From Crocosphaera sp. (GTDB lineage: Bacteria > Cyanobacteriota > Cyanobacteriia > Cyanobacteriales > Microcystaceae): a stretch of 64,000 bases of DNA. Made by a program: the position numbers and the translations under genes. This document shows, in pieces, positions 12,884 through 22,749 of the stretch. Where the stretch lies: NCBI RefSeq assembly GCF_030064895.1, contig NZ_JASJEB010000062.1, forward strand, positions 1 to 64,000, in the 5' to 3' direction. Position 1 is the stretch's first letter. Each line of letters begins with the position of its first letter. The notes under the pieces were generated by a model. That model saw only the letters and a program-made list of their open reading frames with translations. It was not told where the DNA came from and ran no database searches.

Positions 12884-13174
12884 ATGGTTATTTGTAAATT
12901 ATCAAATCCTTATCAACCTTCCGATGAAGAATTAGCACAAATAAGAGCAATTTCTGATGATGAAATTGACTTTTATGATGCACCTGAAACTGATCTAGAA
13001 TTTTTGTCAAAAGCAACTAAAGTTAGTCCAAAAAAACAGGATAAAACTAAGGTATTAGTATCTTTAGATCAAGAATTAATGAACTGGTTAAAAAGTGAAT
13101 CTGAAAGTCAAGGACTTGATTATTCTTCTTTGATTACTTCAATTTTATTCTCTTACAAAGAAGAAAATAATTAA
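12884..13174 (+). CDS. brnA: BrnA-type RHH antitoxin
   Basis: A 96-residue protein with the BrnA-like segment ISDDEIDFYDAPETDLEFL (about residues 24-42). A C-terminal ribbon-helix-helix follows: TKVLVSLDQELMNWLKSESE and then the second helix. BrnA neutralises BrnT and represses the operon. Here it precedes brnT by one base, whereas the classical order is brnT-brnA. A decayed copy of this gene lies at 15225-15300. Confidence 0.82.
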   Translation: MVICKLSNPYQPSDEELAQIRAISDDEIDFYDAPETDLEFLSKATKVSPKKQDKTKVLVSLDQELMNWLKSESESQGLDYSSLITSILFSYKEENN

Positions 13175-13175
13175 C

Positions 13176-13472
13176 ATGGATATTTTTCATGTACATAATG
13201 GAATTACATTTGAATGGGATGAGAAAAAAGCAGTTTTAAATCTTAATAAACATAATAGTTCTTTTGAAAAAGCTTGCGAAATCTTTTTTGACCCCTTTTT
13301 ATTATCATTAGAAACAGAATATGTGCAAGGAGAAGAACGAGATCGTATAATTGGGTTAACCTTAGACTGGAAACTTTTATTAGTGGTTTATTTCTTAAAA
13401 CAAGATACCATAAGAATAATATCAGCACGTCCCACAACTTCTACAGAAAGAAAACAATATGAAATTCGATAA
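13176..13472 (+). CDS. brnT: BrnT-type ribonuclease toxin
   Basis: The 98-residue product has the BrnT hallmarks FEWDEKKAVLNLNKHNSSFE (residues 9-28), an FFDP turn, ERDRIIGLT, and the C-terminal IRIISARPTTSTERKQYE with the Arg and Glu residues used in RNA cleavage. The length is typical. It is sandwiched between two RHH genes, following brnA by one base and overlapping the next gene by 14 bases. Confidence 0.88.
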   Translation: MDIFHVHNGITFEWDEKKAVLNLNKHNSSFEKACEIFFDPFLLSLETEYVQGEERDRIIGLTLDWKLLLVVYFLKQDTIRIISARPTTSTERKQYEIR

Positions 13473-13743
13473 ACTTAAACAGCGTTTACATCAAGATAGA
13501 CCAAAGATTACAATCAATTTAGAAATTCCAGAAGATGTATTAAAAGACTTACAAAAAATTGCCCCAAAGTTAGGATTTTCTAATTATCAAGCTTTAATTC
13601 GTGCGTATATTGGTCAAGGTTTAAGAGTTGATTTGGAAAAACTCGACAATGATAGTATATCAAGTTTAATTGATAGTTTAAGAAAACATGGGGTTACTGA
13701 TGATGTTATTGCTGCTGCTGTAGCTGATACAAAACAATCTTAA
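13459..13743 (+). CDS. Second RHH/CopG-like antitoxin overlapping brnT
   Basis: A 94-residue protein with a likely RHH core, ITINLEIPEDVLKDLQKIA then LGFSNYQALIRAYIGQGLR (about residues 17-56), and an acidic C-terminal tail. Its start lies inside the end of brnT, so the three genes are one operon. It could be the true BrnT partner, with the upstream brnA serving as a backup, or a repressor. Confidence 0.72.
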   Translation: MKFDKLKQRLHQDRPKITINLEIPEDVLKDLQKIAPKLGFSNYQALIRAYIGQGLRVDLEKLDNDSISSLIDSLRKHGVTDDVIAAAVADTKQS

Positions 13744-13804
13744 TGTTAGTTAGCTGAAATATTTGGGAATACTAATACAAGGTATCAGTTAGATCAATTT
13801 GTTT

Positions 13805-15103
13805 ATGGAATGGAAAAATTGGCAAAATACATCTTTCAAGTCCAAAGATCATCTTCCCTCATATTCGGGTATTTATGTAGTAGCAGATAAAGATGATCGT
13901 GTTTGGTATGTTGGACAAGCTAAAAATATATACTTAAGATGGCAAGGTACAAGTCATCATCGATATCCTCAACTAAATCGATCGCATAAAAAATTCAATT
14001 ACACTATCTATTATTATCCATTTTCCCTTGAACAACTAGACGAAAAAGAACGTTACTATATCAATACCCTTAACCCAGAACTAAATAATAGTGAAGTTAA
14101 ACAATATCTTCCTAAAGTTCCCTCTCTTGAAGAAGAAATTAAACGTATTCTTAAGGTACTCAATAAACCCAATAGTCTCTATCCAACCGTCCGATCACTG
14201 ATTTTAGGCCAGTATCAAGATAATAATAATACTATTCATGTTTTGTGTCTTATTAATACTAATGACTATGACATATTGCAAAACTCAGCAACGAGAAAAA
14301 ATGGAGGTTTAGTTAGAAATGCTTGGTCTGGACTTTATCGACATTCTAAGCGTACAATTGTTTGGATAGACACCCCTATTTATACAATGTCTGGATATCA
14401 GTTTGAGTTTTATGGTGGGTCAGAAGTCATTAATCATTTGGAGAGACACAGTGATCAAAGAAGTCGTTATCTTGAAAAAGCAACTATCTTAGGGGTTGAT
14501 GTCTTGATGATAAAAGACTTGAGAATTCTTACTCTATCTAAATTACCTTTAAAAGACAAATTAAAAGACAAATTACCTTTATTAGAAAACAAAATGAATA
14601 CAAACAATCAACAAGAATCACAAACCCAGTCCGAAGCATTAGTAACACCATCTTTACCCAAAAAGATGAAGCGATGGTTAGTAAATGTAGAAGATGTTGA
14701 AGTAGAAATCTGTAAAGATGAAAATGAAAAATATTATGTCCGACATAATTTATATTGGTATATTTTCTCTGGGAGAAAAAATCCAGATCCTATTCATAAT
14801 TGTGTGATCAAGAACTGTGAAGATATAGTAAATAATAAACTAACTACAATTTGGTGGGCAGGTTACAGTTTTAAATTTGAAGAACTTGAGTTTGAAGAGG
14901 GACTTATAACCGAAGCTGTATTATTACCTTTAAAGATGTTTGAGGACTTTATTAAGTATTTATATGAAAACAATTTGAAAAATGACCGTTTTTCTGGTTA
15001 TATTCTTCCTCCTGGACCTCCAAAATCTATGGGTTCTTCTTATAGAATATATCAATTAGGTAAATGGCTTCAAAATAATAGTTTAGAACAATTTAAAAAG
15101 TAG
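13805..15103 (+). CDS. GIY-YIG nuclease-domain protein
   Basis: The 432-residue protein has an N-terminal GIY-YIG fold (about residues 18-95): SGIYVVAD, then VWYVGQAKNIYLRW, the ERYYINTLNPELN segment with the metal-binding Glu, and a final Asn. The middle (about 100-280) and C-terminal part (about 288-432, WLVNVEDVEVEICKDENEKY onward) resemble nothing I recognise. ATG at 13805 is preferred over TTG at 13799. It may be a standalone nuclease of an accessory system; the island context suggests a conflict role, which is inferred. Confidence 0.75.
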   Translation: MEWKNWQNTSFKSKDHLPSYSGIYVVADKDDRVWYVGQAKNIYLRWQGTSHHRYPQLNRSHKKFNYTIYYYPFSLEQLDEKERYYINTLNPELNNSEVKQYLPKVPSLEEEIKRILKVLNKPNSLYPTVRSLILGQYQDNNNTIHVLCLINTNDYDILQNSATRKNGGLVRNAWSGLYRHSKRTIVWIDTPIYTMSGYQFEFYGGSEVINHLERHSDQRSRYLEKATILGVDVLMIKDLRILTLSKLPLKDKLKDKLPLLENKMNTNNQQESQTQSEALVTPSLPKKMKRWLVNVEDVEVEICKDENEKYYVRHNLYWYIFSGRKNPDPIHNCVIKNCEDIVNNKLTTIWWAGYSFKFEELEFEEGLITEAVLLPLKMFEDFIKYLYENNLKNDRFSGYILPPGPPKSMGSSYRIYQLGKWLQNNSLEQFKK

Positions 15104-15224
15104 TTAATTTTAAAGCGATCGCTTAATTATGATGAACAAGGAAACTGGTTAGGAAATAAATGATATAATTTAACTAATTAACAGTTTTTACCTGAGTCTA
15201 TGTTGAACTTTTATTGTCCCTATT

Positions 15225-15300
15225 GATGAAATTGACTTTTCTAATGCACCCGAAAATAATTTATAATTTTGTTCAAACGCAACTAAAATTAGCCCAAACT
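15225..15300 (+). pseudogene. Relic of a brnA copy
   Basis: GATGAAATTGACTTTTCTAA and the following 55 bases align with the middle of brnA at about 12958-13035, giving DEIDFSNAPENN, a stop and then SNATKISP. Start and DNA-binding part are absent. It is a leftover of a duplicated brnA, sitting between the GIY-YIG and nucleotidyltransferase genes. Confidence 0.75.
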
Positions 15301-15314
15301 TAAAACATAAAAAA

Positions 15315-15635
15315 ATGAATGATAAGTTAAACTCTATTTTAAAATCAATAGACAACTATTTACAAAATATCTATCATGATGAACTAGATAAAGTCATTCT
15401 TTTTGGATCTCAAGCGAGGGGTGATGCAACTTTTCAATCAGATATTGATATTTTAATTGTTTTAAAACATTCTTTTAGTTATTATCAAGAAGTCAAAAAA
15501 ATAAGTGAATTTATTAGTGAATTATCTTTAGAATATAATCAATTAATTAGTTGTTGTTTTACTACATCACAGCAATGGGAAATAGAAAATAGTGCTTTTT
15601 ATCGTAATATTCATAGAGAAGGAATAGTTTTATGA
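15315..15635 (+). CDS. MNT-type nucleotidyltransferase (second MNT/HEPN pair)
   Basis: A 106-residue minimal nucleotidyltransferase. VILFGSQARGDATFQSDIDI carries GSx10DxD with G31, S32, D43 and D45. It is unrelated in detail to the mntA at 4042 and lacks its N-terminal extension. It overlaps the following HEPN gene by ATGA. It is probably the modifying antitoxin or partner of that protein. Confidence 0.85.
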   Translation: MNDKLNSILKSIDNYLQNIYHDELDKVILFGSQARGDATFQSDIDILIVLKHSFSYYQEVKKISEFISELSLEYNQLISCCFTTSQQWEIENSAFYRNIHREGIVL

Positions 15636-16003
15636 ATGAAATTCAGCGTAAATTTTTAGAAAAACCAGAAAAAAGTTTAGCCGTTGCTAGACAAATAAAT
15701 GAGACAGGTTATTCTGAGTTTGCCGTATCGAGAGCCTACTATACTATGTTTTATGTTGCTTCTGCTTTCTTAGAAGGAGAAAATTTATCTTATGGAAAAC
15801 ACTCAGCCATCATTTCTGCCTTTGGACAATATTTTGCTAAGACTGAACGAGTTCCTAAAAAGTATCATCGTTATTTAATTGAAGCAGAAAAACTTAGAAA
15901 AGGAGCAGATTATAATCTCGATATTGACATTAGTTTTGATGAAGCTAATCAAGTTATACAGCAAGCAGAAGAAATGTTAGTATTTGCTTTTGACCATTTA
16001 TGA
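15632..16003 (+). CDS. HEPN-domain protein (PF05168-like)
   Basis: This 123-residue four-helix HEPN protein has SEFAVSRAYYTMFYVASAFL (about 25-46), GKHSAIISAFGQYFAKTERV and the C-terminal LRKGADYNLD motif. Unlike HepT at 4464 it lacks an obvious R-x4-H RNase motif, so it may not be a ribonuclease. It is the coupled partner of the nucleotidyltransferase gene and faces psbA tail to tail. Confidence 0.82.
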   Translation: MNEIQRKFLEKPEKSLAVARQINETGYSEFAVSRAYYTMFYVASAFLEGENLSYGKHSAIISAFGQYFAKTERVPKKYHRYLIEAEKLRKGADYNLDIDISFDEANQVIQQAEEMLVFAFDHL

Positions 16004-17544: not shown

Positions 17545-18570
17545 ATGACCCCTACAGCCCTAAAAACCTATCTACAAAACCTCGTCACCCATAACCTGTA
17601 TATCAGTACAATGATTTGGGGTGCGCCTGGTATTGGTAAGTCTAGTATCGTTGCGCAAGTTGCCAGGGAAAATCAACTAGAGTTTATTGACTTACGTTTA
17701 AGTCAGCTTGCCCCCACAGACTTAAGGGGTTTACCCGTTGCCATTGCAGAAACGGACAACTCTCCCCAAGGACTTTCTACTTGGTATCCTCCGGAGTTTT
17801 TACCCAGAGAAGGGAAAGGTATTCTCTTCTTAGATGAACTTAATATGGCACCTCCGGCCATGCAAGGGGTAGCGCAACAGTTGATTTTAGATAGACAAGT
17901 GGGGGCCTATAAAGTGCCGGAGGGTTGGTTTATCTGGGCGGCCGGAAACCGCAAAGAAGATCGGGCTTCGGTGTTTGCTATGCCCTCTCCTTTGGCAAAT
18001 CGTTTTTTACATTTGAATGTAGAGGTAGATTTTGATAGTTTTAAGGCTTATGCGTTATTAAATAGCTTTCATGAACAGATTCTTGCCTTTTTATCCTATC
18101 GAACCAATCTATTACACTATCTTGACCCTCAAAATGCCGCTTGGCCTTCTCCTCGTTCTTGGGAAATGGCCAATTATCTCCATCAGGTTAACTTAGATAT
18201 TGCCTCGGCAGTAGGGGAAGGAGCAACAGCAGAGTTTAACGCCTTTGTTAATTTATATGAAAATTTACCGGACCTCAATGAAATATTAGACGGAAATGGT
18301 CATCATGTTCCTTTTTCCTCTGAACCCTCTGTGCGCTATGCCACTACCATTGGTTTAACCGTGAGGGCAAAAGATGTTAATCAAGCTTACAATGGGTTTC
18401 GCTGGTTAACCGATAAAGCTACTGCGGAATGGGTACAAATATACTCAAGTGATTTAATTGGTCAAATGAGGGCTAAAGGACAGGTCGGAAAATTAGCCCA
18501 GTTAATCCAAAAAGATTCTAAATTTAAGGAATTCTTCCAAGACTATAAAGAATTAATGGGAGTGTCCTAA
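17545..18570 (+). CDS. MoxR-family AAA+ ATPase
   Basis: A 341-residue AAA+ protein. Walker A is MIWGAPGIGKSSIVAQ (about residues 23-38) and Walker B is GILFLDELNMAPPAMQ (about 93-108), followed by sensor-1 FIWAAGNR and the arginine-rich MPSPLANRF. MoxR ATPases work as chaperones with VWA-domain partners. The VWA-type gene is 1.9 kb downstream with three LRV-repeat genes between, on the same strand, suggesting one functional cluster. Confidence 0.88.
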   Translation: MTPTALKTYLQNLVTHNLYISTMIWGAPGIGKSSIVAQVARENQLEFIDLRLSQLAPTDLRGLPVAIAETDNSPQGLSTWYPPEFLPREGKGILFLDELNMAPPAMQGVAQQLILDRQVGAYKVPEGWFIWAAGNRKEDRASVFAMPSPLANRFLHLNVEVDFDSFKAYALLNSFHEQILAFLSYRTNLLHYLDPQNAAWPSPRSWEMANYLHQVNLDIASAVGEGATAEFNAFVNLYENLPDLNEILDGNGHHVPFSSEPSVRYATTIGLTVRAKDVNQAYNGFRWLTDKATAEWVQIYSSDLIGQMRAKGQVGKLAQLIQKDSKFKEFFQDYKELMGVS

Positions 18571-18636
18571 TAGCAAAATCCGTAGGGACTTAATGGTATT
18601 AAGCCCTTGGTTAATAATATTAACATTGCTGGAATT

Positions 18637-19710
18637 ATGAATGAAAATATTTTAAATTTACAACAAGAAGCTATTAATGAAAACACTTCCCCTGAAAGAT
18701 TAGAGGAACTAGCTGATATGTCGGAATTGGCACATTTAGTTGCTCAAAATGTTAATTGTCCTTCAGAAACTTTGATAAAATTAACAAAAAATGCTAGTGA
18801 TAATATTCTGAAAGCTGTTGTTAGTAATCCTAGCACCCCAACAGAAATTTTAATAGAATTAGGTGCTAAATTTCCTCAAGAATTAGTCAAAAATCCCATT
18901 ATTGATCTTTGGTTACTAGAAGATGAAAATCCTTTATATTTTGACAATCAATTAACAGCAAAGTTAGCTATCAATCCGAATACACCCATTAACTTATTAA
19001 AACTATTAGCTCAATTTCCTGATTCTCAAGTTCGGATTGATGTAGCTAAAAATAGCAATACTCCTGCTAGTATATTAGAGAAGTTAGCTACCGATTCTGA
19101 TGCCAATGTTCGTCTTCGAGTATCTTACCATCAGAATACTCCTATTAGTGTATTAGAGAAGTTAGCCACTGATTCTGATTCTGGTATTCGTTGTTATGTA
19201 GCTTTGCATCAGAATGTTTCTGTTAATTTACTACAACAATTAGCCGAAGATTCTCATCTATTGGTTCGTTATAATGTAGCTAAAAATACCAATACTCCTG
19301 TTACTTTATTAGAAAAATTAGCTACTGACTTTAACTATGGTGTTCGTTGTAATGTAGCTAAAAATCCTAATACTTCTATTATTTTACTAGAACAATTAGC
19401 CAGAGATGCTGATGTAGTTGTTCGGTGTTGTGTAGCTGAAAATCCGAAGATTCCTCTTAGTTTACTGCAACAATTAGCCACTGATGATAAGAAATCTGTT
19501 CGTCGTAATGTAGCTGCAAATCCAAAGACTCCTATTAATTTATTAGAGCAATTAGCCAACGATTTTGATGTAGTTGTTCGTCGTGGTATAACTTCTAATG
19601 AGAACATTCCTATTTATTTATTAGAAAAATTAACCACTGATTCTGATGCTTCTCTTCGGTCGACTGCTAGAAAAAAACTAAAATATCGTAAGGATAATTC
19701 ACATGAATAA
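18637..19710 (+). CDS. LRV-repeat protein 1 (full length)
   Basis: A 357-residue protein. A roughly 120-residue N-terminal module (MNENILNLQQEAINENTSPE through PQELVKNPIIDLWLLEDENP) is followed by about nine helical repeats of 26 residues with consensus LLEQLAtDsDxxVRxxVAkNpNTP. These are leucine-rich-repeat-variant (LRV)/HEAT-like. ATG 18637 is chosen by alignment with the paralogues rather than TTG 18607. It overlaps the next paralogue by 8 bases. Such solenoids bind proteins, so it could select clients for the MoxR/VWA pair; this is inferred. Confidence 0.8.
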   Translation: MNENILNLQQEAINENTSPERLEELADMSELAHLVAQNVNCPSETLIKLTKNASDNILKAVVSNPSTPTEILIELGAKFPQELVKNPIIDLWLLEDENPLYFDNQLTAKLAINPNTPINLLKLLAQFPDSQVRIDVAKNSNTPASILEKLATDSDANVRLRVSYHQNTPISVLEKLATDSDSGIRCYVALHQNVSVNLLQQLAEDSHLLVRYNVAKNTNTPVTLLEKLATDFNYGVRCNVAKNPNTSIILLEQLARDADVVVRCCVAENPKIPLSLLQQLATDDKKSVRRNVAANPKTPINLLEQLANDFDVVVRRGITSNENIPIYLLEKLTTDSDASLRSTARKKLKYRKDNSHE

Positions 19711-20065
19711 TAACCTTTTAAACCTACAACAAGAAGCAATCAATGAAAACACTTCCCCTAAAAGATTAGAGGAATTAGCTAATATTCCAGAAGTGGCTCA
19801 TTTAGTTGCTCAAAATGTGAATAGTTCTCCAAAAACTTTAACACAGTTAGCAGAAAATTCCAGTGAGAATATTCTGAAAGCTCTTGTTGTCCATCCTAGT
19901 ACAGCAACAAAAATTTTAATCAAATTAGGTGATAAATTTCCTGAAGAATTAGTCAAAAATCCCATTGTTATTTCATTAGAACAATTAGCTACCGATTCTG
20001 TTGATTATGTTAGTTATACTACTAGAAACCAACTAAAATATCGTAAGGATAATTCATATGAATAA
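19703..20065 (+). CDS. LRV-repeat protein 2 (repeats largely deleted)
   Basis: The 120-residue protein has the same N-terminal module as its neighbour (MNNNLLNLQQEAINENTSPK to EELVKNPIV). It then jumps straight to a single terminal repeat and the shared C-terminus QLKYRKDNSYE, so the middle of the solenoid is deleted in frame. It overlaps both flanking paralogues by 8 bases and is probably an internally shortened duplicate. Confidence 0.75.
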   Translation: MNNNLLNLQQEAINENTSPKRLEELANIPEVAHLVAQNVNSSPKTLTQLAENSSENILKALVVHPSTATKILIKLGDKFPEELVKNPIVISLEQLATDSVDYVSYTTRNQLKYRKDNSYE

Positions 20066-20393
20066 TGACCTTTTGACCCTACAACAAGAAACTATTGACG
20101 AAAACACTTCCCTTAAAAGATTAGAGGAATTAGCTGATATTTCGGAATTAGCACATTTAGTTGCCCAAAATGTTAATTGTTCTCCAGAAACTTTAACACA
20201 GTTAGCAGAAAATGCTAATGAGAATATTCTGAAAACTCTTGTTAGTAATCCTAGTACACCAACAGAAATTTTAATCAAATTAGGTGTTAAATTACCTCAA
20301 GAATTAGTCAAAAATTCAATTATTGATCTTTGGTTACTAGAAGATGATAATCCTTTATATTCTTACAATCAATGTAGTGTAGCTGTTAGTTAA
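20058..20393 (+). CDS. LRV-repeat protein 3 (N-terminal module only)
   Basis: A 111-residue product retaining only the N-terminal module (MNNDLLTLQQETIDENTSLK to IIDLWLLEDDNPLYSYNQ), then CSVAVS and a stop. No repeats follow. It is a truncated member of the tandem family, ending 91 bases before the VWA gene. Confidence 0.7.
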   Translation: MNNDLLTLQQETIDENTSLKRLEELADISELAHLVAQNVNCSPETLTQLAENANENILKTLVSNPSTPTEILIKLGVKLPQELVKNSIIDLWLLEDDNPLYSYNQCSVAVS

Positions 20394-20484
20394 AAAACAC
20401 CAATTCATCATAGTAATTATTTTATATATAAGCCAATCTTTGCCTAAAAATCAGTAAGAAACTGCACCTCCAAAATCAACTCAA

Positions 20485-21780
20485 ATGACTGAAAACATCG
20501 ACAAAATTATCAGTGCTTCTCGCCTTCGAGTTCGCATGAAATCACCTTTCTTTGCTACTCTTTCTCTCTTTGCTAATTATAGACCATCTTCTTCTATCTC
20601 TACTGCTGCAACCGATGGAAAAGATGTCTATTTTAATCCCGATTTTCTATTATCTTTATCCAAACCTCAACAAGATGGATTACTATTACATGAACTACTC
20701 CATGCTGCTTTACTACATATTACTAGAAAGGGGCAGAGAGAAGCTAAATTATGGAATATTGCAGCCGATATTGTGGTTAATGGGTTAATCTTTGAACAAG
20801 GGTTATTTGAATTACCAGAAGGAGGAATTCGTAAACCAGAATGGGAAAAAATGAGCGTTGAAGAAATCTATGATTTATTACTTAAAGAATCTCCTCCCTT
20901 AAAATTATGCAACCCTGATTTATTATCCCAACCTCCTAAAGACTGTCAGGGAAATAGTTCAAGTATTTCTCACAATTCAGAAGCAGAGCAAGATAAAAAT
21001 AAAGATAAAGATAAAAAGGCTTCAGACAATACTCACAATACTCAAAAAAAAGAAGAGAAAAATAATAGCTCATCTCAGAAAAATAAGGATAATAAGCATT
21101 CAAAAACTAATCTATTTGATAGTTTAAGTGAAGTACAAAAACAAAAATTGGCATCCCATTGGAAAAATGCCATGCAACAAGCTGCGGTAATTCAAAGAAC
21201 AAGTAATCAAGGAAAATTCCCAGCAGGAATTATCAGACAGTTAGAAGAAATATCCCAATCTCAAATCGACTGGCGTAGTTATTTATGGCGATATTTAGTA
21301 CAAACTCCTAACGATTTTCAAGGTTATGATCGCCGTTTTGTTAGTCGAGGTTTATATCTAGATACTGTAGCAGGTGAATCGGTTCAAGTCTTTGTTTGTG
21401 TGGACACCAGTGGTTCTATTGGGAATCAAGAATTACAATTATTTTTAAGCGAAGTTGTGGGAATTTTGGGGTCATATCCTCATGTAAAATGTCAATTATA
21501 TTATGCAGATGCTGATGTTTATGGACCCCATTCTCTTACCTTAGATGAAAATATTCCTAAACCAGAAGGAGGAGGAGGAACCTCTTTTATTCCTTTTTTT
21601 GAAAAAGTAGAAAAAGATCGAGATCCTAACTTGGAAGGAGTCTGTGTTTATTTAACCGATGGTTATGGAACTTTCCCCGAAGAAGAACCATTATTACCGA
21701 CTCTTTGGGTAGTTACTTCAGGAGGATTAAACTTAAATAAAATTCCCTTTGGTGAATCTGTTAAACTATATATTAATTAA
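20485..21780 (+). CDS. DUF2201-type metallopeptidase-like/VWA protein
   Basis: This 431-residue protein combines an N-terminal metallopeptidase-like domain with HELLHAALLH (HExxH, about residues 68-77) and a C-terminal VWA-like domain with VFVCVDTSGSIGNQ (MIDAS DxSxS, about 306-319). Between them, about residues 155-205, is a Lys/Asn/Ser-rich low-complexity linker. The layout is that of the DUF2201 family, normally found with a MoxR ATPase. Here LRV genes separate the two, and another follows 15 bases downstream. Confidence 0.85.
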   Translation: MTENIDKIISASRLRVRMKSPFFATLSLFANYRPSSSISTAATDGKDVYFNPDFLLSLSKPQQDGLLLHELLHAALLHITRKGQREAKLWNIAADIVVNGLIFEQGLFELPEGGIRKPEWEKMSVEEIYDLLLKESPPLKLCNPDLLSQPPKDCQGNSSSISHNSEAEQDKNKDKDKKASDNTHNTQKKEEKNNSSSQKNKDNKHSKTNLFDSLSEVQKQKLASHWKNAMQQAAVIQRTSNQGKFPAGIIRQLEEISQSQIDWRSYLWRYLVQTPNDFQGYDRRFVSRGLYLDTVAGESVQVFVCVDTSGSIGNQELQLFLSEVVGILGSYPHVKCQLYYADADVYGPHSLTLDENIPKPEGGGGTSFIPFFEKVEKDRDPNLEGVCVYLTDGYGTFPEEEPLLPTLWVVTSGGLNLNKIPFGESVKLYIN

Positions 21781-21795
21781 CTATCTAATATTGCT

Positions 21796-22476
21796 ATGAA
21801 TGAAAAATATTTAGCCTTAGAACAAGAAGAAGAAGCACTTAACGAAAATACTCACCCCGAAAGATTAGATGAGTTAGCGGATGTTCCACATTTAGCTGCT
21901 TTAGTTGCTGAAAATGTTAATACTTCACCAGAAACTTTCACGAAATTAGCAATAAATAAAAACGAAGATATCCTTAAAGCTATTGTTCGTAATCCTAGTA
22001 CACCAACAGAAATTTTAATCGAATTAGGTAGTCTATATCCTCAACAATTAGTCAAAAATCCCATTGTTGATCTTTGGTTACTAGAAGATAATAATCCTTT
22101 TTTATATGAAAATACCTTTAAGAAAAAGTTAGCTTGTAATAGAACTACACCCGTTAAACTCTTAAAAATATTAGCTCGTGATTCTGATTCTAACGTTCGT
22201 TTAGAAGTAGTAAAAAATCCTAATATTCCTGTTAGTTTGTTAGAAATATTAGCTCGTGATTCTGATTCTAACGTTCGTTTAGAAGTAGTAAAAAATCCTA
22301 ATATTCCTGTTAGTTTGTTAGAAATATTAGCCTATGACTATGACCCATTGGTTTGCGATACCACATCTATTTATTTTGTCTATCGAGTGTTGACAGATGA
22401 TAATACCCCCGTTAGCTTATTACAAAAATCAGTGAATCAGCTAAAACATAATAAAGGTTTCTTATCTTTATTATAA
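21796..22476 (+). CDS. LRV-repeat protein 4, shortened by an in-frame stop
   Basis: The 226-residue product has the family N-terminal module (MNEKYLALEQEEEALNENTH to IVDLWLLEDNNPF) and about four 26-residue repeats. Two of the repeats are identical at DNA level. A TAA at 22474-22476 ends the reading frame, but the same frame continues with further LRV-like sequence to 22749. It begins 15 bases after the VWA stop, so it is probably co-transcribed. Confidence 0.75.
   Translation: MNEKYLALEQEEEALNENTHPERLDELADVPHLAALVAENVNTSPETFTKLAINKNEDILKAIVRNPSTPTEILIELGSLYPQQLVKNPIVDLWLLEDNNPFLYENTFKKKLACNRTTPVKLLKILARDSDSNVRLEVVKNPNIPVSLLEILARDSDSNVRLEVVKNPNIPVSLLEILAYDYDPLVCDTTSIYFVYRVLTDDNTPVSLLQKSVNQLKHNKGFLSLL
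22171..22326 (+). repeat. Perfect 78-bp tandem duplication (one 26-residue LRV unit)
   Basis: The 78 bases from 22171 (TTAGCTCGTGATTCTGATTC...) are repeated identically from 22249. Each copy encodes LARDSDSNVRLEVVKNPNIP plus VSLLEI. Perfect identity indicates a recent duplication, or a repeat number that changes. Confidence 0.9.
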
Positions 22477-22749
22477 TTATCTAAACCTATTGAGGAATGC
22501 TATCAGGTTTGTCATTTCAGGAGTAATGATCTTTTTGAACTTAAAGAATTAGTGCTGAAAATAGCTAATAATCCTAATACCCCTCTTAACTTACTCCAAT
22601 TTATAGTTGAACATTCTCCCAAATATGTTGATGAGATAGTTTATGTGGGAGTGAATTCTGGCATACGGGGATGCATAGAGACAACTGATAATACAATCTA
22701 TATAGTGGCATACCGCAACTTCTACAAACGTCACGGCAATCGCATTTAA
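22477..22749 (+). pseudogene. Continuation of LRV protein 4 after the premature stop
   Basis: Directly after the TAA the same frame stays open for 90 codons (LSKPIEECYQVCHF onward). It contains LVLKIANNPNTPLNLLQFIV, a clear LRV unit, before TAA at 22747-22749. The two parts would make one protein of about 317 residues if the single stop were a sense codon. Confidence 0.7.

Follow-up and report, generated by a model that had tools for sequence, protein, structure and literature searches.

We analysed a 64,000-nucleotide stretch of the Crocosphaera sp. contig NZ_JASJEB010000062.1 (assembly GCF_030064895.1; hereafter, the window), in which six co-directional genes at positions 17545–22476 encode a MoxR-type AAA+ ATPase, three leucine-rich repeat variant (LRV) proteins, a DUF2201_N metallopeptidase that ends in a VWA domain, and a fourth LRV protein, in that order. 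An earlier reading of the letters alone (that is, the original prediction) had described this gene set and order correctly and had proposed a chaperone system with a diversifying, duplicating solenoid adaptor. Here we describe the locus, its recurrence in other genomes and the case for LRV proteins as partners of the MoxR–VWA pair.

The Crocosphaera locus and its LRV array

The features of the locus, all on the + strand, are as follows.

17545..18570, + strand: MoxR-type AAA+ ATPase, 341 residues (Walker A GAPGIGKS, Walker B ILFLDE)
18637..19710, + strand: LRV1, an N-terminal LRV-like module followed by nine 26-residue LRV repeats
19703..20065, + strand: LRV2, in which the module runs into a last repeat and tail resembling those of LRV1; probable internal-deletion copy
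20058..20393, + strand: LRV3, the module alone; a probable truncated copy that ends just past the module
20485..21780, + strand: DUF2201 protein, in which a putative zincin metallopeptidase domain (HELLH) precedes a C-terminal VWA domain (DTSGS metal-ion-dependent adhesion site, MIDAS)
21796..22476, + strand: LRV4, the module, three repeats and a degenerate end
about 22570–22647, + strand: orphan LRV repeat (remnant) in the frame of LRV4, 3′ of its stop, seen in the frame translation

LRV1 starts with ATG (a TTG lies further 5′, at 18607), and 8-nt overlaps join LRV1 to LRV2 and LRV2 to LRV3; the orphan repeat is probably the reason why the region first delineated reached 22749. The modules of LRV2, LRV3 and LRV4 are 64–75% identical to that of LRV1, and a module search of the whole source genome finds four places only (that is, LRV1–LRV4). 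Against the Pfam model PF01816 (cut-off, 21.6 bits), LRV1 (132.8), LRV4 (63.4) and LRV3 (23.1) score above the cut-off and LRV2 (18.9) below it. The four genes do share an N-terminal module, as had been proposed, but its treatment as a separate unit is not borne out: the AlphaFold2 model of LRV1 (mean predicted local distance difference test score, pLDDT, 93.8) forms one continuous helical solenoid from residue 2, module included, and the module is a divergent LRV rather than a domain of its own.

Comparison with the nearest named relatives (Crocosphaera watsonii WH 8501, Cyanothece sp. BG0011 and the unicellular cyanobacterium SU3) indicates that the LRV set of the window is a decaying tandem array. 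Between MoxR and VWA, C. watsonii carries three LRV genes, all full-length, and BG0011 carries one. Each of the nine 26-residue repeats of LRV1 has its counterpart in C. watsonii LRVa (89% identity), of which LRV1 is the apparent 1:1 orthologue, with a ratio of non-synonymous to synonymous substitution rates (dN/dS) of 0.36 for this pair versus 0.20 for MoxR and 0.28 for VWA, whereas the C. watsonii module closest to those of LRV2 and LRV3 is that of LRVb (81% and 83%, respectively). A 300-nt direct repeat (19617–19916 and 19972–20271, 85% identity) covers tail and module at both junctions, which fits the expectation of unequal recombination, and two repeats of LRV4 are 92% identical over 78 nt (direct repeat 22150–22227 and 22228–22305). 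On this sequence evidence, LRV2 and LRV3 are probably internal-deletion remnants and LRV4 is a doubtful case, and the likely working arm in the window is LRV1.

The original prediction had counted about nine, one, zero and four or more repeats and had taken the differences for functional variety. The nine repeats of LRV1 hold, and LRV4 has three with a degenerate end; we rejected functional variety, given that LRV2 and LRV3 resemble deletion or truncated copies and that the copies at this place in C. watsonii are full-length. Rapid evolution of LRV1 was likewise rejected, given its dN/dS against the C. watsonii orthologue and the conservation of its face positions (described below), which equals that of the remaining positions. 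Tandem duplication of LRV genes, also part of that prediction, recurs elsewhere, with seven copies before MoxR in one locus (L092).

Recurrence of LRV genes beside MoxR and DUF2201–VWA genes

LRV genes are supported as a recurrent third component of the MoxR/DUF2201 pair. A scan with an alignment of the VWA protein only, run on 84,980 genomes, each from a different species, found 113 relatives, the best 80 of which we took as loci (many of these are cut by contig ends, and LRV detection thresholds vary slightly between scans). Among the 80 loci, 66 contain a MoxR gene, 51 an LRV gene and 45 an LRV gene within 1 kb of MoxR or VWA, so that the neighbourhood seen in the window extends to other genomes; LRV genes this close to the core lie on the VWA strand in 62 of 65 cases. 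MoxR and VWA are indeed normally adjacent, as the prediction had assumed: the gap is at most 500 bp in 55 of the 66 loci with both genes and larger in 11. Unsupervised all-against-all clustering of the neighbours of the 80 loci yields three widespread close partners, namely MoxR (64 loci), LRV (51 loci; 106 genes, 98 of them on the VWA strand) and pentapeptide-repeat proteins (15 loci). The next cluster, an ABC-type gene, is present in 13 loci at a median distance of about 9 kb, and the clusters that follow reflect local synteny.

The LRV-bearing loci span Cyanobacteria and at least six other phyla and include Meiothermus, Herpetosiphon, Hymenobacter, Limnohabitans, a Spartobacterium, a gammaproteobacterium and a myxococcal metagenome-assembled genome. 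In a draw of 151 Chloroflexota genomes, a VWA relative is present in 21, from which 14 loci were fetched: six have LRV upstream of MoxR (L242, L246–L249 and L252), one (L241) is ambiguous and seven have none, some of these seven being cut by contig ends and one being L243, which seems to be the same contig as L185. Locus L241, in which the MoxR and LRV frames overlap, was not counted as LRV-linked.

Several loci show arrangements of their own. In Limnohabitans (L203:4509–8852), a 1448-residue LRV protein with an N-terminal WGR domain is encoded just upstream of MoxR–VWA, and on Thermus oshimai pTHEOS01 (L271) an LRV-like gene, MoxR, VWA, a gene for a 746-residue protein and a UvrD-type helicase gene follow in one run. 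Pentapeptide-repeat proteins with similar N-termini are encoded shortly downstream of VWA at loci that have no LRV gene (L157, L159, L160, L174, L179, L183, L197 and L198). Proteins of 110–173 residues that are mostly LRV module occur at L110, L112, L117, L121 and L238, with neither MoxR nor VWA in the stretch examined.

The association also holds at the level of whole genomes. In 243 genomes of the order (a set that overlaps with the named loci, and in which the DUF2201 type was sorted by hand from score and frame length), the module is present in 59 and PF13203 in 52, of which 34 have the DUF2201 type of the window and 18 have other types only. The module occurs in 31 of the 34 genomes with the type of the window, in none of the 18 with other types only and in 28 of the 191 without PF13203 (31/34 versus 28/209; Fisher's exact test, 1.5e-19, which ignores phylogeny). 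Collapsing to genera, which is a partial remedy for phylogeny, leaves 21/22 versus 16/88 (1.2e-11), and restricting the module matches to E values of 1e-8 or better leaves 26/34 versus 11/209. A broadened hidden Markov model of the N-terminal module (nm2) matches 149 of 149 LRV genes, and module specificity therefore cannot be claimed from nm2.

LRV genes also accompany MoxR where VWA is encoded elsewhere: in five genomes of the genus Chamaesiphon and one Hyella (loci L123, L225, L226, L227, L230 and L235), LRV lies directly upstream of MoxR and the VWA gene is on a separate contig, except in G090, where it lies about 93 kb away. Within the genus Crocosphaera, the parts of the system tend to be lost together. 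The system is found in four of nine genomes, one of the four disrupted (and in 6 of 50 genomes of the family), and the other five genomes (79–93% complete) contain no VWA, no module and no convincing MoxR match. In SU3, a deletion runs from the start of MoxR to the middle of VWA and leaves one LRV copy about 5 kb away; G259, a congener of Aphanothece hegewaldii, has no VWA and retains LRV together with a MoxR that is broken.

These data make it highly improbable that the neighbourhood is a product of chance or of hitchhiking by an expanding repeat family. In favour of such a product, large filamentous genomes hold many LRV genes (11 of the 12 detected in Calothrix sp. PCC 7716 lie elsewhere), but 21 of 42 LRV genes detected by PF01816 in 12 genomes, mostly chosen for having LRV near VWA, fall inside VWA neighbourhoods of roughly 21 kb, against 0.11 expected from density. 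We judge this explanation refuted by the neighbour clustering, by the VWA-only scan (51 of 80 loci, in several phyla and on the same strand), by the LRV–MoxR pairs that stand apart from VWA and by the Chloroflexota draw.

Conserved motifs and a divergent solenoid face

The window MoxR scores above the Pfam cut-off for AAA (PF00004) and slightly below those for AAA_3 and AAA_5, and is 65–71% identical to the MoxR partners at 13 other loci. Midasin provides the closest chain and the only kind of match among solved structures; RavA and CbbQ are not among the matches at E values of 0.01 and 0.001. Walker A and Walker B patterns are each present in 64 of 66 MoxR partners; for the MoxR AAA+ clade, the accessible text of PMC7159879 also names a helix-2 insert and an arginine finger.

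The DUF2201 protein matches PF13203 (131.9 bits) and PF09967 (65 bits). Residues 298–431 adopt a VWA fold similar to the LFA-1 I domain (Z 13.4, root-mean-square deviation (rmsd) 2.3, 134 residues aligned; one of many tied matches), although a sequence search of the protein against solved structures gave no convincing match; the protein ends with this domain, at residue 431, and has no C-terminal effector domain. The MIDAS motif DxSxS is present in all 80 VWA proteins, and the TDG and GGG-T/S patterns are both present in 73.

HExxH is kept at 73 of the 80 loci (HELLH in the window); the exceptions are five HQVLH, one HAVLH and one truncated gene. All six HQVLH or HAVLH loci are from Chloroflexota, and four of them (L188, L192, L194 and L196) keep the adjacent LRV gene. 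Given that LRV linkage persists where the histidines are kept but the glutamate is lost, remodelling is favoured over proteolysis as the common function, and a universal proteolytic function was rejected. Substitution of the catalytic glutamate by Gln or Ala, with the zincin histidines kept, was noted in the Chloroflexota DUF2201 proteins of L180, L185, L188, L192, L194, L196 and L241–L243.

The LRV1 model is structurally most similar to alphaReps, which are designed binders with repeats of 31 residues (Z 17.0, rmsd 4.4, 238 residues aligned), and it also matches the LRV structure 1lrv (Z 14.8, rmsd 5.2, 222 aligned), Z values up to about 13 being common for repeat proteins. Across 464 repeats from 88 genes, columns 18, 19, 22, 23 and 26 rank with the most variable columns and hold the five highest counts of non-synonymous differences. 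These five columns (that is, the face) map to a single side of the repeat's second helix, and columns 18–26 are helical in the LRV1 model. The designed alphaReps vary at positions 18, 19, 22, 23, 26 and 30, according to the accessible text of PMC3754942, and in both the variable positions follow an i, i+1, i+4, i+5, i+8 pattern along one face of a helix, a likeness that rests on spacing and helix. The alphaReps are artificial, HEAT-like and derived from other natural repeats, in contrast to the natural LRV.

Comparison of repeats within genes (86 non-overlapping pairs from 36 genes, each repeat used once) gives a ratio of non-synonymous to synonymous differences per site (pN/pS) of 1.96 for the face on its own pS (95% confidence interval, 1.65–2.39; bootstrap by gene), against 0.79 (0.70–0.89) for the other columns. 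When neither pS nor the face is filtered, the face ratio is 1.60 (1.37–1.87). These values come from the Nei–Gojobori method on short repeats in which gene conversion is possible and are therefore indicative only. Between orthologues the face is held: seven comparisons (5–45 face codons) show 89–100% identity with pN not above pS, and the face of LRV1 is 89% identical to that of its C. watsonii orthologue (pN 0.057 versus pS 0.098). The nine repeats of LRV1 carry nine distinct five-residue sets. Repeats thus appear to diverge after duplication and then to be held, and divergence between repeats together with conservation between orthologues is the pattern expected of a binding surface. The solenoid is diversifying, as had been proposed, in the sense that one face diverges between repeats at a ratio of about 2.

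LRV solenoids as candidate recognition arms

On balance, we lean towards a MoxR–VWA machine that uses LRV solenoids as exchangeable recognition arms, the binding itself being the conjectural step. Three parts would act together: a MoxR AAA+ ring, a zincin-like, MIDAS-bearing VWA co-chaperone, and one or more LRV alpha-solenoids. The LRV face would bind a target protein, and the solenoid would dock on MoxR or VWA and so hand the target to the pair, by analogy with MoxR–vWA pairs in which, according to the accessible text of PMC7159879, the vWA protein takes hold of a substrate peptide for remodelling by the AAA+ ring. ATP hydrolysis by MoxR may then remodel the captured target or the LRV–target complex, and the zincin domain may cut the target where the catalytic glutamate is kept. 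The sequences themselves show recurrent linkage and co-occurrence of the three parts, Walker and MIDAS motifs that remain intact, LRV genes that have been duplicated in tandem and lost, and the face pattern. The solenoid adaptor of the original prediction accordingly stands as a recurrent, tandemly duplicated component with one diversifying face, and its role as an adaptor remains a conditional part of the model.

Several observations weigh against this reading. The face columns were picked after their variability had been viewed on overlapping data, and with no divergence filter, the face ratio falls to 1.12 (1.05–1.20) at a pS of about 0.5. LRV genes that lie away from MoxR and VWA show as large a face excess (ratio 2.5; 22 pairs, 10 genes), so that this excess is a trait of the LRV family and not of the MoxR–VWA system specially. 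The zincin glutamate is lost in Herpetosiphonaceae/Chloroflexales (HQVLH or HAVLH), so that cutting is not universal. The other 21 of the 42 PF01816-detected LRV genes lie outside a VWA neighbourhood, module matches occur in 28 of 209 genomes without the VWA type of the window (11 of 209 at the stricter E limit of 1e-8), and no LRV gene was found in the examined stretch of 29 of the 80 VWA loci. The LRV family is not exclusive to the MoxR–VWA system, and its enrichment beside the pair is far above chance; the wide occurrence of the module away from MoxR and VWA, named in the original prediction as what would count against it, is therefore seen in part. Some of the loci without LRV neighbour pentapeptide-repeat or LRR proteins, and WD40 proteins adjoin 4 of 72 loci, which suggests that other repeat solenoids may be able to fill the LRV slot.

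The same counts bear on an improbable alternative in which LRV proteins are clients: MoxR–VWA would serve specifically to assemble or mature LRV proteins, which would have a function of their own elsewhere. MoxR–VWA pairs are often encoded beside their client (CbbQ/CbbO with Rubisco, and NorQ/NorD), LRV genes are co-encoded with the pair and largely co-lost in the genus Crocosphaera, and further LRV genes lie at a distance from the pair in the same genomes, all as clients might. LRV folding cannot always need VWA, however, given the 28 of 209 genomes with module-bearing LRV and no VWA of this type, and the loci without LRV, some with pentapeptide-repeat or WD40 neighbours, also argue against it.

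A role in conflict (that is, anti-phage defence or stress sensing) is possible, if rather unlikely: LRV would sense foreign or damaged protein, and MoxR–VWA would set a threshold and release or drive a zincin effector. The patchy distribution in the genus and family of Crocosphaera and the diversified solenoid face would suit such a role, and a similar logic appears in the MoxR–vWA ternary systems of Kaur et al. 2020 (accessible text of PMC7159879). In Synechocystis PCC 6803, a genetically tractable laboratory strain, the trio is found on plasmid pSYSA, which carries three CRISPR systems (PMC3575380). Type I-D cas2 is separated by about 4 kb from the LRV gene, which adjoins a DUF262 gene matching PADLOC Orf5, and by about 10 kb from the end of the VWA gene. 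The nearest neighbours of the loci match 44 PADLOC families (72 proteins) versus 6 for a far set (43 proteins). Nevertheless, among the 25 of 44 families listed, none is matched by more than two of the 72 nearest non-core neighbours, which indicates no recurring defence gene; no window protein has a strong PADLOC match (best E value, 0.0016); the VWA protein carries no fused C-terminal effector; and the downstream GHL10 and ABC genes are common to the window and three Crocosphaera relatives, as in an ordinary chromosomal locus, the upstream neighbours (psbA and others) not being found in the stretches examined of those relatives. We consider a defence-island context weakened, with pSYSA a telling exception.

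On pSYSA itself (L270, NC_005230.1 12361–41608), MoxR (SGL_RS00750) adjoins VWA (SGL_RS00745), LRV (SGL_RS00715) lies about 4 kb off on the other strand, and several toxin–antitoxin genes are found around them. Upstream of psbA, at 12884–16003, the window holds genes for a BrnT toxin, CopG-type antitoxin-like proteins, a GIY-YIG protein and a nucleotidyltransferase–HEPN pair.

Among characterized systems, LRV1 belongs with the LRV family PF01816 (1lrv) by its 26-residue repeats, Pfam matches and solenoid model. The Azotobacter LRV protein has a Cys-rich N-terminal Fe–S domain, whereas LRV1 has no such domain and a single Cys in its N-terminal 109 residues. RavA–ViaA, CbbQ–CbbO and midasin resemble the present system in combining a MoxR-clade AAA+ with a MIDAS protein, and we know of no LRV partner for them. 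The MoxR–vWA ternary conflict systems (VMAP, iSTAND, FtsH, beta-propeller, iSTAND2 and TERNS3; accessible text of PMC7159879 and PMC8195603) share the MoxR AAA+, the vWA co-chaperone and a system-defining third component, and superstructure-forming repeats are common among them; here, by contrast, the third component is an LRV solenoid, and the vWA protein has an N-terminal zincin and no C-terminal effector. The terms LRV and DUF2201 do not occur in the searched text of these two papers. The MoxR of VMAP systems is extended at its N terminus by a segment that bears WxhapG and PsWRxa motifs (PMC7159879), for which there is no room in the window MoxR, whose P-loop begins at about residue 26. Pfam scans found no VMAP, iSTAND, FtsH or beta-propeller third component, although such models may be absent from Pfam.

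Group 2.2 jumbo phages carry the same two-gene core (that is, MoxR and a vWA protein with an N-terminal metallopeptidase), proposed to act in virion assembly (accessible text of PMC7824862), with no LRV partner known there. Relatives of the VWA protein occur in 193 phage records at E 1e-5, including cyanophages S-TIM5/54/61/66 and Bacillus phage G, and LRV1 matches no phage record at this threshold. The two-gene core is therefore already known; LRV as a third partner appears to be the new part, and a search of literature text, mostly outside subscription journals, found no paper linking LRV with MoxR or DUF2201 with MoxR.

A more specific and tentative extension, which we put forward as speculative, is that the LRV repeats embody a repeat-wise specificity code (five residues per 26-residue repeat), reshuffled by recombination and positive selection, through which LRV would feed chosen proteins to MoxR and the VWA–zincin protein, with pentapeptide, LRR or WD40 proteins perhaps filling the same slot. 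If MoxR–VWA indeed works with LRV solenoids as recognition arms, the little-studied LRV family and the DUF2201 metallopeptidase–VWA proteins would gain a shared context, as parts of an AAA+ machine whose specificity evolves through the reshuffling of solenoid repeats, comparable with the recognition repeats of immune receptors and with designed binders.

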